Source: an uncultured Bacilli bacterium
Lineage (GTDB): Bacteria; Bacillota_I; Bacilli_A; RF39; UBA660
DNA length: 61,744 nucleotides
NCBI GenBank assembly: GCA_944332295.1
Contig: CALVJR010000005.1
Span: forward strand, 1-61,744
Reading direction: 5' to 3'
The position numbers and the translations under genes are program-made. Below, one piece after another: positions 54,182 through 59,701 of this stretch; within the stretch, counting starts at the first letter, position 1; every line of letters begins with the position of its first letter. A model generated the notes under the pieces. It made no database searches, had not been told where the DNA came from, and worked only from the letters and a program-made list of their open reading frames with translations.

Positions 54182-55477
54182 TTATTTTTTAGATACTAAA
54201 TTTAATGTTTTTTCACTATGTCTATCTTTAATATATGTGTTTTTCTCTCTTTCACACTCTTTATCATTAATTTCTAGTTTCTCTAAAAACATTTCTGAAG
54301 TTATATCAATTCCTGCTTGCTCTAATTCCATTGCTATATAAGGTAGAGCATCTCTTATAGAAACTGTATTAGAAAATATTTCTTCAATACTAAGATCTGT
54401 TTTTCTAAAAAACAAATCATCCGCAAAAATATGAATCCATGTAAATGGGGGATTTTGTTTTCCAAATTTTTTTAGTGATTGATAGTGATAACTAAAGGTA
54501 TCTTTCACAAACCTTTGTCGACATAATGTATCTTGTTCTGGTTCTCTTAAACTTACTCTATTCTTTTTATATACTGGTATTCTGTTCATCTTATCTTTTA
54601 ATAATTGGTCTTTAGTTATTATTGTATCTTCTTGATTTTCTCTTTTTGGTATTGCATTTTCCCAAATTGTATTATAAAGATATTCTCCCGTTGCTTCTAA
54701 CGGATTTAGTTCTACTATATCATATATCGCAATATTTCTTTTTGGTATCATGTAATGTGCCATATCCATACTGAAAGTAGTAGGGAAATTTTCTGTTGCT
54801 ATAATATGTTCTAATAGTTTTTGAGCCTCTTCTTTTACCTCTTCAGGGATAGGATGTGTAGTTGAGTATAGTGGCCTTGAAATACTTTTTATTTTACCAT
54901 CTAAAACGAAACATCTATATTCTTGTTTGCCATACTCATCTTCTATTATTTCTACTTTTTCACTAATCATAAATTCTTCAGTTGGATGTAATTCTAATGC
55001 ATCTATAAGACCATATTTTCTTTCCAAAAACTCATTTATGTTTATAGCGGCAGAAAAGTTTTTCTCCACTGTTTTTAAGAAAATTTCGTTATCTATTTGC
55101 ATATCAAATATTCTATTTTTTAGTTTTTCATTTTTCAATATTTCTTTTCCTGTTGCAAAGACAATATTTCTTTTTGTTGGTATAAATTTAGACCATTGTT
55201 TAATTTTATCTATCTTATCTTTAGTATTTAATGGAGATCCTCCATGTCTTATTATAGCTTCCATTATTATTTCTTCTTTAGAAATATTTGTTCTAGGAAA
55301 TATTCGTAACCCTGTTACCTCTTGAATTTCTCCATTAGCGTTATAGAATTCATCTGCTATTTCATCATAAAAACATACATTTCTTTCATTTTCTAATGCA
55401 TATTCTATTTCTTCGTTTTTCCTATTATATGGATTACTCGTTGTCGGTGCAGTATAGCAAACTAAAATTGATTTCAT
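54182..55477 (-). CDS. ATP-grasp-like protein, 431 aa
   Basis: The middle of this soluble protein fits an ATP-grasp fold: a strand with EYRCFVLDGKIKSISRPLY near residue 195, then FPTTFSMDMAHYM and IYDIVELNPLEATGEYLYN near 245-270, where the E-x-N of metal binding and a following Gly-x-Tyr are typical. The first 100 residues resemble the preATP-grasp region found in uncharacterised DUF4343-type members. The C-terminal 150 residues are charged and unknown. Such enzymes join a carboxylate to an amine or thiol using ATP; the substrate is unknown. Lone gene with its own promoter. Confidence 0.65.
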   Translation of the reverse strand: MKSILVCYTAPTTSNPYNRKNEEIEYALENERNVCFYDEIADEFYNANGEIQEVTGLRIFPRTNISKEEIIMEAIIRHGGSPLNTKDKIDKIKQWSKFIPTKRNIVFATGKEILKNEKLKNRIFDMQIDNEIFLKTVEKNFSAAININEFLERKYGLIDALELHPTEEFMISEKVEIIEDEYGKQEYRCFVLDGKIKSISRPLYSTTHPIPEEVKEEAQKLLEHIIATENFPTTFSMDMAHYMIPKRNIAIYDIVELNPLEATGEYLYNTIWENAIPKRENQEDTIITKDQLLKDKMNRIPVYKKNRVSLREPEQDTLCRQRFVKDTFSYHYQSLKKFGKQNPPFTWIHIFADDLFFRKTDLSIEEIFSNTVSIRDALPYIAMELEQAGIDITSEMFLEKLEINDKECEREKNTYIKDRHSEKTLNLVSKK

Positions 55478-56250: not shown

Positions 56251-57108
56251 ATGGGTGAAGAGGAGTATATAAAAATTGCAAAAAGGGTAAATGTTCACAA
56301 TTTTTATGGTTTTATGGATTCTTACAATCTAACTTATGGAGAATTATTAGGTATTATTAATTATGGAATTCATTCTGACATTTCAAAGTTTCAAAAAGAG
56401 AATTTATATCAATTACTACATGATAAACAGTGTATTTTACGTCTTACTGATTCTAAACTAGGAATTATTGCAGATACTCATATAGGTAGTCCTTTTATGA
56501 GTTGGGATAAAATTTACAGAGCATATGATTTTTTCTTTGAGCATAATATTCATACTGTGATATTGCTCGGAGATTTATTTCATGGTCCTTCTTATAGATA
56601 TAAAACAAATCCTAATCGAGGTATTATTCAGTGTTACCAACAATTTGTTGATTGTGAGGAGCATTACCCAAAAGGTTTTCAAAACTTTGTTTTGCATGGA
56701 AATCATGAGGAAAGATTTGAATTTGTTGGTATGAATTTATGGGAAATGTTAGCTGTGAAAAGAGACGATTTTTTCTCCTTAGGTATTGGTAGATGTTATG
56801 TTGAAATGAATGGGTTTATTATATCTTTAAATCATCCTGGTACTCGGGATACACTTCTTCCTCCTGAAATGGATTGTGATATTTCTCTTTATGCCCATTA
56901 TCACTATTTTAAAAAAAGAGGTAGTCAAACTAATATTGGCACATGTAGTGACCTTATAAATCAGAATCCTTCTACCGGAATAGATACTCCCGGGTTTGCC
57001 ATTTTATATGCCTGTAATAATAAATTACGTCTTAAAGCTTATGATTTGTCGGATGATGATCCTAAACTAATGTTTACAGAGTCATATTCTAAAATAAAAA
57101 AGCGATAG
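56251..57108 (+). CDS. Calcineurin-like metallophosphoesterase
   Basis: 285 residues. The metal motifs of the family are in order: D-x-H in IIADTHIG near 73, GD in LLGDLFHG near 108, GNHE in LHGNHEERF near 150, and H-x-H in YAHYHYF near 220 where GHTH is usual. An N-terminal helical region of about 60 residues, with KVAKRVNV-type segments, precedes the catalytic domain and is unusual. Substrate unknown (phosphoprotein, nucleotide or DNA). Start preceded by AAGGTGAT. Confidence 0.85.
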   Translation: MGEEEYIKIAKRVNVHNFYGFMDSYNLTYGELLGIINYGIHSDISKFQKENLYQLLHDKQCILRLTDSKLGIIADTHIGSPFMSWDKIYRAYDFFFEHNIHTVILLGDLFHGPSYRYKTNPNRGIIQCYQQFVDCEEHYPKGFQNFVLHGNHEERFEFVGMNLWEMLAVKRDDFFSLGIGRCYVEMNGFIISLNHPGTRDTLLPPEMDCDISLYAHYHYFKKRGSQTNIGTCSDLINQNPSTGIDTPGFAILYACNNKLRLKAYDLSDDDPKLMFTESYSKIKKR

Positions 57109-57134
57109 CACTATGCTTGTGCATTCGCTTTTTT
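57096..57134. terminator. Bidirectional terminator between phosphoesterase and RNB-like gene
   Basis: AAAAAAGCGA pairs with TCGCTTTTTT, with an inner GCAC/GTGC stem. It overlaps both gene ends. Confidence 0.8.
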
Positions 57135-59642
57135 ATAAGCTTTTACCATTTTCTTTATTACTTTTTCATTTCCTTTTTCTAAATCACTTGGTATATATTC
57201 ATGACTTTCATTTAATTTTTCTATTAATTCTTTTACTTCTGCTTGAGACTCTTCTGGATTATACTTTTTACTTACTATTTTATGAATTGTATTCATTAAA
57301 AATATTCCTGCTTCTGTATCTGGATTCATCTCTAACTTACTTTCTTTTGTTTTTGTAGGTGTATAATATTCACTATCTTTTGAATCAATAATATCAAATA
57401 TTTGATGTGCTTTTGGCCTTGCTATCTTATGTAAATCTGTACATATTTCGTTATGATTTTGTAATATTAATTCTTCTATATTTGGTAACGGACTTTGATA
57501 GATAAATGGTATTTTTTGACTTTGTAATTTTGAAGACATTCTTTCTGAAAAATACGTTGAGATTAATTCTTTTGTTGTATAATCTTGATATTCATTTTCT
57601 AATAATCCTATTTTTTCTTGAATTAGTTTTAACCAATTTGCAACCTGTTTTAATTCTGTTATATCTCTGTAATTATCTAAATCTTCATAACTATAGTATT
57701 TATCTATTTTTATCGTTGCTGGTGTTACTTTTAAATCTTGAAGTTGGTTGTTCTTATTGATATTACTTTCAAACACTATTGTAGGATATTCTCTTTCCGT
57801 ATTCAACTTTGGTAATACTTGTAAACCAGACTCTACTTCTTTTGCAATATCATCATTTTCATTTACTATTGTTGTAGTATCTAATATATGAACTCCAATC
57901 TTTCTACTACCGTCTAAGTTGAATTGTAGAGAAAAAGCAAATGGTTCTAGTCCTGCTATTTGAAAAGTTTTTATAGTATCTGAAGTTTGATATTCAGGAT
58001 ATCCTCTTCTTTCATTTCTAATTACTGCAGAATCCAGTAAAAATTCATATATTTCTTTTCTTTCTTGTCTTTCAAAATATAATTGTCCAGTTTGTTCTTT
58101 GCTTTCTTCTATATATTCTAGACTTTCTATTTCTTCAATATCATTTAGTACTTTATCTGTAGTTTGATAACCTTTTCCTTTAATATATTCTTTAAATTCT
58201 TCTATGCGTGTATAATATTTATCTTGTTCTTCTTGCGTTAATTCTACATCTTTCTTTATAAATAATTTGATTATTTCTTTATAATATATTGGTTCTATAT
58301 AATCTAATCCTTGATCTAGGAGTTTTAATTTATAATTTTTTATAAAATTGTCTAACGATAATAGAACAATATGTTCTTTTCTTCTATTTATTACAGTTTT
58401 TCTTCCATGACCTTCCTTTTCTTTATATGTTTTTCTGGCTCTTGTGAATTCTTCTATATCTAATAATTTTTTTATATAATCATAATTTCTATCATCTTGC
58501 ATTAATTTATTTAATATATCGTAGTAGACACTTGTATCTTCTTCATCAATTTGATAAATTATTGGCTTTATTCGTTCAAATTCTTTTTCTATATTTTTAA
58601 GAAAAGCTTTTTCCCAACTATTATCTTCTTTTCTTAGCACTTTTCTTCTTTGTTTTAATACATCTATGGCTAAAATAGTTAGTTCTTCTAGCTCATATGT
58701 AGGTAAATCTAACATATTATTTAATAAAGCTTTTATTTCCTCTGGAATAAATCGTGTTGGCTGATTATTATACTCTTTCGTATATTTACCACACACTAGT
58801 TTTCTTAAGATAAATTGAAAGTCTTTTTCAATAGCATTTTTTGGCTCTATAAAATCATAATTTTCAATTAATTCTTCATTTGTTGGTTCTGGATTTGTTA
58901 ACAATTTAATTTGAGCATTGTCTAATTCTTTTAAGTGTATTATGCTTTCTAAAAACTGATGACATTTTCTAACTTCTATTGTTATTTTTTCTAACTTTTC
59001 TCTAAAGTCTAAGTATTCTTCTCTATTCATTTGACTATATATTAACTTCTTTGAGGTAGGTAGCCCTAATTTTATATTACTATCTACCGCTATCATATGA
59101 TAAACTCTTTCGCTCATTTCTTTTTGATATGAAATTTGTTCTTGTAACGCTGTTGTATATATTTTTTGTAGTTCTCTTAATATTGATACTCGTTCATTAT
59201 AAAATGCTGTATTTTTATAGGTATTAAATTCCTCTCTTGTCTCGTCTGATAGCCAGTAATTGATTAGTTCTATATCTGAAATTACTTTCCTTCTTCTCAT
59301 TTCTAATTTTGATTTTCCAGATGTATTACCTGTAGTTGGTTGTTGGCGAACAGACGCTGGTTGATTACGCATCAATCTAAATTTTTTATCTGTTTCTAGT
59401 AGTTCTTGAAATTCTATTCCTATTTCTAATGCAAGTTCTTCCTCTCCATTATTTCTATAAGTTCTATTTAGTGCCCTATTACTTCTTTTCATCGAAATTA
59501 GTTTTTTACTGATTTGTGCTAATAAGTCATCTGTTAGTTCTTCTCCTAATTGTGTTTCTAATTCTTGTAGACTTTCTACATTCTTTATGTAAGAAATTGC
59601 TTTCTTTACTATTTCATTATATTCTTCTTTTCTCTTTTTCAT
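57111..59642 (-). CDS. RNase II/R (RNB)-like protein lacking catalytic aspartates, 843 aa
   Basis: The first 550 residues are charged and helical, with no domain I know. From about residue 556 the order of segments follows the RNB domain of RNase R: a strand, KIGVHILDTTTIV (for VxIADVSxYV), LPK, a helix, ELISTYFSERMSSKL (for the LANxxVA helix), IPFIYQSPLPNIEELI (for PALYRxHxxP), and SEYYTPTKTKESKL (for YxHFTSPIRRYxDL). The four catalytic Asp of the D-x-D-x-DDA stretch are absent (GLEPFAFSLQF), and SPIRR is lost. No cold-shock or S1 domain is seen. Probably an RNA-related scaffold, or a protein that has lost activity. Starts with GAAGGA upstream of ATG 59642. Confidence 0.65.
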   Translation of the reverse strand: MKKRKEEYNEIVKKAISYIKNVESLQELETQLGEELTDDLLAQISKKLISMKRSNRALNRTYRNNGEEELALEIGIEFQELLETDKKFRLMRNQPASVRQQPTTGNTSGKSKLEMRRRKVISDIELINYWLSDETREEFNTYKNTAFYNERVSILRELQKIYTTALQEQISYQKEMSERVYHMIAVDSNIKLGLPTSKKLIYSQMNREEYLDFREKLEKITIEVRKCHQFLESIIHLKELDNAQIKLLTNPEPTNEELIENYDFIEPKNAIEKDFQFILRKLVCGKYTKEYNNQPTRFIPEEIKALLNNMLDLPTYELEELTILAIDVLKQRRKVLRKEDNSWEKAFLKNIEKEFERIKPIIYQIDEEDTSVYYDILNKLMQDDRNYDYIKKLLDIEEFTRARKTYKEKEGHGRKTVINRRKEHIVLLSLDNFIKNYKLKLLDQGLDYIEPIYYKEIIKLFIKKDVELTQEEQDKYYTRIEEFKEYIKGKGYQTTDKVLNDIEEIESLEYIEESKEQTGQLYFERQERKEIYEFLLDSAVIRNERRGYPEYQTSDTIKTFQIAGLEPFAFSLQFNLDGSRKIGVHILDTTTIVNENDDIAKEVESGLQVLPKLNTEREYPTIVFESNINKNNQLQDLKVTPATIKIDKYYSYEDLDNYRDITELKQVANWLKLIQEKIGLLENEYQDYTTKELISTYFSERMSSKLQSQKIPFIYQSPLPNIEELILQNHNEICTDLHKIARPKAHQIFDIIDSKDSEYYTPTKTKESKLEMNPDTEAGIFLMNTIHKIVSKKYNPEESQAEVKELIEKLNESHEYIPSDLEKGNEKVIKKMVKAYKKANAQA

Positions 59643-59701
59643 ATTTATCCGTTCCTTCTTTATTATTAGATATTACTAGAAACTTGAATTTTTCCTTTTA
59701 A

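Follow-up and report, generated by a model that had tools for sequence, protein, structure and literature searches.

For the RNB domain of the RNase II family it is established knowledge that loss of the catalytic aspartates abolishes nuclease activity (summarised in PMC8097288). Fungi provide the described examples of RNB proteins in this state: the pseudonucleases Ssd1 and Sts5 belong to the Dis3L2 branch of the family (PMC8097288, PMC8934651). The fungal RNB proteins have undergone at least four independent catalytic losses, with conservation lying outside the RNB domain (PMC8097288), and Ssd1 binds RNA through its cold-shock domains (PMC8934651). A search of open-access papers found no bacterial RNB pseudonuclease. 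Here we describe such a case, for which fungal Ssd1/Sts5, minus the cold-shock domains, appears by analogy to be the closest precedent. Shared with the fungal proteins are an RNB fold without catalytic Asp, repeated independent losses within one branch, and conservation centred outside RNB; in contrast, the protein described here is bacterial, carries a helical domain in place of the two cold-shock domains, lacks S1, and has an RNB core that is shortened rather than blocked by insertions, whereas the RNA site of Ssd1 lies on its cold-shock domains.

The window analysed is a 61,744-nucleotide stretch from an uncultured Bacilli bacterium (GCA_944332295.1, contig CALVJR010000005.1), and the gene of interest lies near its end. 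The gene encodes an 843-residue protein that we assign to a clade referred to as F1, with the following features:

57,111–59,642, minus strand: open reading frame of 843 aa with an ATG start, coding for a helical N-terminus and a degenerate RNB domain (F1 clade pseudonuclease).
59,652–59,658, minus strand: GAAGGAA, resembling a ribosome-binding site, just 5' of the ATG (direct reading).
58,623–59,642, minus strand: residues 1–340, F1-specific N-terminal helical extension, all-helical in the model and outside the alignment to the hRNB intermediates introduced below.
58,098–58,622, minus strand: residues 341–515, helical domain common to the hRNB subfamily and best-conserved part of the protein (profile alignment, model, conservation).
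57,186–58,097, minus strand: residues 516–819, RNB fold (Foldseek and VIA alignment to RNase R/II, Dis3 and Ssd1; HMM and profile matches).
57,927–57,968, minus strand: residues 559–572, TFQIAGLEPFAFSL, in the place of the catalytic loop TIDGxDxKDxDDAxS, about four residues shorter and with zero Asp.
57,495–57,512, minus strand: residues 711–716, IPFIYQ, counterpart of PFIYR in RNase R (profile alignment and HMM).
57,297–57,326, minus strand: residues 773–782, NPDTEAGIFL, in the place of the RNA-anchoring TSPIRRYxDL, with the arginines gone.

Sequence similarity to RNB is faint when the protein is considered by itself: a single-sequence Pfam scan gives RNB at E 0.56 and 9.9 bits, which is not significant against the cut-off of 29.3. 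An HMM built from the family alignment and run against all PDB sequences has RNase R (8cdu, E 1.6e-7) as its sole significant match, and the probability of a profile-profile match to RNase R rises from 44.6% with a genus-only set to 95% (E 2.5e-8) with a wider set of relatives. Against the helical RNB intermediates the match reaches 99.9% (E 3.6e-34) over 485 columns, a span that takes in the helical domain and almost all of RNB. The AlphaFold2 model, built on 27 sequences, has a mean pLDDT of 83.7, with most RNB blocks near 90; its pTM of 0.55 leaves the placement of the two halves relative to each other uncertain. Foldseek matches this model to RNase R (E 2e-8) and Ssd1 (E 3e-7), and every one of the 36 matches under 0.001 is an RNase II-family chain. 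VIA gives Z 19.9 for RNase R (289 residues) and 19.1 for Ssd1, with an overlap of about 285 residues. Because the HMM, profile-profile and structural matches agree despite the weak Pfam score, the relation to RNB goes beyond chance, and the protein is a member of the RNase II/RNB superfamily by descent and fold. The first-pass annotation had proposed this homology from a series of short motifs, and two of the checks that it named, a profile-profile search and a structural comparison with RNase R (made here at the level of the whole fold), bear it out. Neither outcome that it gave as refuting has come about: the structure matches RNB and, as described below, no conserved acidic cluster takes over from the lost Asp. 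The motifs themselves are all present in the reading frame: GLEPFAFSLQF at residues 564–574, VHILDTTTIV at about 584–593, IPFIYQSP at 711–718 and YYTPTKTKESKL at 759–770.

RNase R is the best structural and sequence match and shares the RNB fold and segment order; the two differ in nearly everything that RNase R uses to cut RNA. The 1.7 Mb genome assembly also encodes an ordinary RNase R, on a contig other than that of the F1 gene, and its catalytic loop TIDGDDTKDIDDAIS aligns to TFQIAGLEPFAFS in the 843-residue protein, which is about four residues shorter and has no Asp at the four positions. Where RNase R has DxxxxxDxDD, the protein reads A--F at the catalytic columns, and NPDTEAGIF stands where RNase R has TSPIRRYPD. 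The channel segment GTSVYLxDRVIPMLPxxLSNGICSLNP is collapsed in F1, and at a median of 272 residues the RNB core is shorter than that of hRNB (330) or RNase R (365). None of the 30 F1 sequences has Asp at all three of positions 1, 3 and 4, a combination retained in 59 hRNB sequences and in all RNase R. No replacement acidic cluster is conserved across the F1 clade—the only positions acidic in over 80% of its members are D588 and D654, and D588 corresponds to the HIAD Asp of RNase R, a residue additional to the catalytic four. The winged-helix N-terminus of RNase R is missing, Pfam detects neither CSD nor S1, and the model is purely helical up to residue 400, its final element being the last helix of RNB. 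It is thus well supported that this is a dead RNB protein, with the fold kept and the catalytic site erased. The loss of every catalytic Asp and of the SPIRRY anchor had been noticed from the window sequence, and both observations hold; so does the reading of the N-terminus as helices instead of cold-shock domains, to which the loss of S1, then unmentioned, must be added.

The protein does not derive directly from RNase R. Searches with RNB and the intermediates recovered a subfamily, here called hRNB, composed of about 280 helical residues followed by RNB, mostly 600–690 aa long and without CSD or S1 (e.g. L089, L048, L088). As far as seen, its carriers belong to one family of uncultured Bacilli, which comprises about 180 genera; about 300 genomes of the class and 300 of the phylum, sampled outside this family for hRNB or F1, gave RNase R matches or weak short ones only. 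The window protein has the homologous helical domain followed by RNB, as in hRNB (485 columns, 99.9%; tree support 99). In a tree with RNase R as the outgroup and Dis3L2 left out, RNase R separates from hRNB (SH-aLRT 99), and the 30 F1 sequences form a single clade (SH-aLRT 99) nested inside bacterial hRNB. F1 therefore descends from hRNB, most members of which keep three or four Asp and share part of the N-terminus. Both groups consist of the helical domain and RNB without CSD or S1; hRNB differs from F1 in its mostly retained Asp, in lacking the 340-residue N-terminal extension, and in usually lying behind dnaI.

The state of the catalytic site varies within hRNB itself. The 59 aligned sequences that keep Asp 1, 3 and 4 comprise 34 D-E-D-D and 6 D-D-D-D, the rest differing at position 2, and 11 further sequences are changed at position 3 or 4 (D-I-E-D, D-I-E-Q, D-S-E-G and so on). 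Six site-state changes are required on the tree, a count that is not exact, as the tree (computed without the two motif columns) is of a quick type in which some long branches meet. The nuclease site has decayed repeatedly within the hRNB family. Dead RNB proteins had been described as rare in the first-pass annotation; with several cases of site damage in this one bacterial family, and fungal cases already published (PMC8097288, PMC8934651), that description does not hold here. Living genomes preserve a graded series that starts with four Asp, passes through D-E-D-D and the loss of single residues, and ends with the site wholly erased, which offers a natural test of the transition from enzyme to binding protein. 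Two further observations concern hRNB genes: at L214:5250-8729 two neighbouring copies (503 and 651 aa), the active sites of both damaged, lie between dnaI and thrS, and a second hRNB group (L159, L166, L176), unlinked and with four Asp, adjoins a gene for an FAD-dependent-looking protein.

Gene order provides evidence of descent that is independent of the alignments. The usual arrangement, present in many genera, is dnaB-dnaI-hRNB-thrS (L084, L133, L139, L154, L186 and others), with hRNB as third gene of a dnaB-dnaI operon; where linked, hRNB mostly begins 4–32 bp downstream of dnaI on the same strand, and thrS often follows further on. Among the hRNB loci with enough upstream sequence, 46 of 64 have dnaI/dnaB upstream. 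Several F1 genes of other genera occupy the same slot between dnaI and thrS (L018, L035, L036, L038, L039, L040, L041), and this shared position independently supports common descent and an ancestral link to dnaI. The window's genus has lost the dnaB-dnaI linkage: F1 has moved to a site flanked by an ftsEX-like cluster and uvrB, and the gene that comes after dnaI is unrelated. Beyond this slot, the neighbours of F1 differ among genera and indicate no pathway. In B. subtilis the gene between dnaI and thrS is ytxC, and YtxC was considered as a source of the helical domain and rejected—no f1 genome is among the matches listed for the YtxC family, none passes the cut-off in the class sample, and the Pfam families shown for this domain do not include YtxC.

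An intact F1 reading frame is present in 12 of the 16 genomes of the window's genus, at 36–85% identity to the window protein, and other relatives were gathered from further genera of the same family, so that the clade covers many genera. One genus member (G014, L213) retains a remnant with several stops, apparently at the same chromosomal place, and another (G010) gave no F1 match; being absent or decayed in some members, F1 is not essential. Where intact, F1 is under purifying selection and evolves faster than RNase R, with dN/dS of about 0.18–0.24 in three pairs compared with 0.03–0.05 for RNase R from the same genomes. What selection preserves has also changed. In 354 of 435 F1 pairs, similarity is higher in the helical part (341–515) than in RNB, whereas among hRNB pairs with three Asp intact this is so in 76 of 1653 and the reverse in 1577 of 1653; although pairs of this kind are not independent of one another, the trend is plain, and constraint has moved from RNB to the helical domain in F1. 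This domain is modelled with a pLDDT of 89.6, and has no convincing fold match (Foldseek best E 0.15; VIA best Z 9.2 at 13.3 A). In the model it looks HEAT/ARM-like, although a common helical arrangement could give the same appearance.

A possible partner is suggested by a gene fusion. In all five genomes searched from genus g3, a 1272–1276 aa protein consists of two fused halves, one a site-altered hRNB and the other a complete RNase R (L212:4642-8457, L209, L210, L211, L208); the hRNB half reads FTIDDxxTxLREDA and TTPARNY, the RNase R half keeps DxDD and TSPIRRY intact, and an ordinary RNase R gene is present elsewhere in the same genomes. In a single genome (G331, L207) an F1-like gene adjoins a second RNase R gene, both between dnaI and thrS. 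These arrangements suggest that site-less RNB proteins may work with RNase R, and the conserved fusion makes RNase R a concrete candidate partner. Extra RNase R genes occur as a tandem pair in G016 (L085:662-4958) and as a divergent second copy of about 760–780 aa in G011 (L086:926-3262) and G331 (L207:5062-7335).

Taking these lines together, we favour a reading in which the F1 pseudonuclease is non-enzymatic and serves RNA turnover as an adaptor or regulator, active RNase R being its most plausible companion, and give it a probability of about 0.5. The protein would not cut RNA; the helical domain at 341–515, with the extension at 1–340, would form a docking surface, the RNB core would act as a rigid scaffold, and the partner would be the cell's RNase R. 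The hRNB ancestor probably already had a non-nuclease function; this would account for the repeated catalytic loss and suggests a second, non-nuclease role for RNB proteins in bacteria. There is evidence against this reading: the half fused in g3 is a site-altered hRNB and not F1, F1 adjoins an RNase R gene in one genome only, in the window genome F1 and RNase R lie on separate contigs, and F1 is dispensable and fast-evolving. The closest competitor, possible though we hold it doubtful, is a protein that works as Ssd1 does, binding specific RNAs on its outer surface to control their stability or translation. The RNB fold is indeed nearest to RNase R and Ssd1, and fungal RNB pseudonucleases do bind RNA (PMC8097288, PMC8934651); however, the RNA site of Ssd1 sits on cold-shock domains (PMC8934651) that are missing here, as is S1, SPIRRY is lost, the RNB part has an acidic pI of 5.2, and it is the helical domain, not RNB, that is best conserved. 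Of the RNA-binding or regulatory role suggested in the first-pass annotation, RNA binding, though possible, finds no positive support, both RNA-binding domain types of the family being absent and the RNB pI being 5.2. The helical domain, as the best-conserved part, points to protein binding at least as strongly.

The position behind dnaI invites a different reading, in which hRNB and F1 would act with the DnaB-DnaI helicase-loading proteins through the helical domain, the nuclease part being secondary. That 46 of 64 hRNB loci have dnaI/dnaB upstream, and that basal hRNB and several F1 share the slot so that the link looks ancestral, speak for it; but the linkage is lost in the window's genus, and operon neighbours may not cooperate—thrS sits in the same gene order—so we regard this as unlikely. 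A bolder form, which we would likewise not expect to hold, makes hRNB/F1 a new component with dnaB-dnaI, whose cleavage-independent helical job would couple RNA turnover (e.g. of origin or collision RNA, via RNase R) to replication initiation; a helical-domain job that never depended on RNA cleavage would allow the nuclease site to be lost repeatedly. A nuclease still active through a non-canonical second site is very improbable: pseudoenzymes sometimes rebuild sites and D588 and D654 are widely conserved, but no acidic cluster is conserved, the channel segment and SPIRRY are gone, and D588 matches an RNase R Asp outside the catalytic four. Simple decay of a functionless gene has as little to commend it, since the fast evolution of F1 and the remnant in G014 are set against intact frames in 12 genus members at 36–85% identity, a dN/dS near 0.2, and a clade covering many genera. 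Relative to the fungal proteins, the new elements are the bacterial occurrence, the different architecture, the fusion to RNase R and the slot behind dnaI, whose bearing on descent does not depend on the sequences.

Searches of other collections with the window protein returned no relative in the viral collection, no PADLOC match, and nothing significant in PHROGs or NCBIfam. RNB nucleases are also carried by some phages, as the match of one hRNB protein (L089) to the PHROGs phage family phrog_13933 (nuclease, E 1e-50) shows. Weak RNB matches in 719-aa reading frames of four genus genomes look like chance and were set aside; by sequence these are Tex/YqgF proteins with S1, an assignment that Pfam confirms for a Tex-like frame from elsewhere (L112). 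Within the window, a gene at 54,182–55,477 (minus strand) encodes a weak R2K-type ATP-grasp protein, under the Pfam cut-off, and a metallophosphoesterase-like gene at 56,251–57,108 (plus strand) converges on F1 with its end 2 bp away; related genes lie nearby in several relatives.
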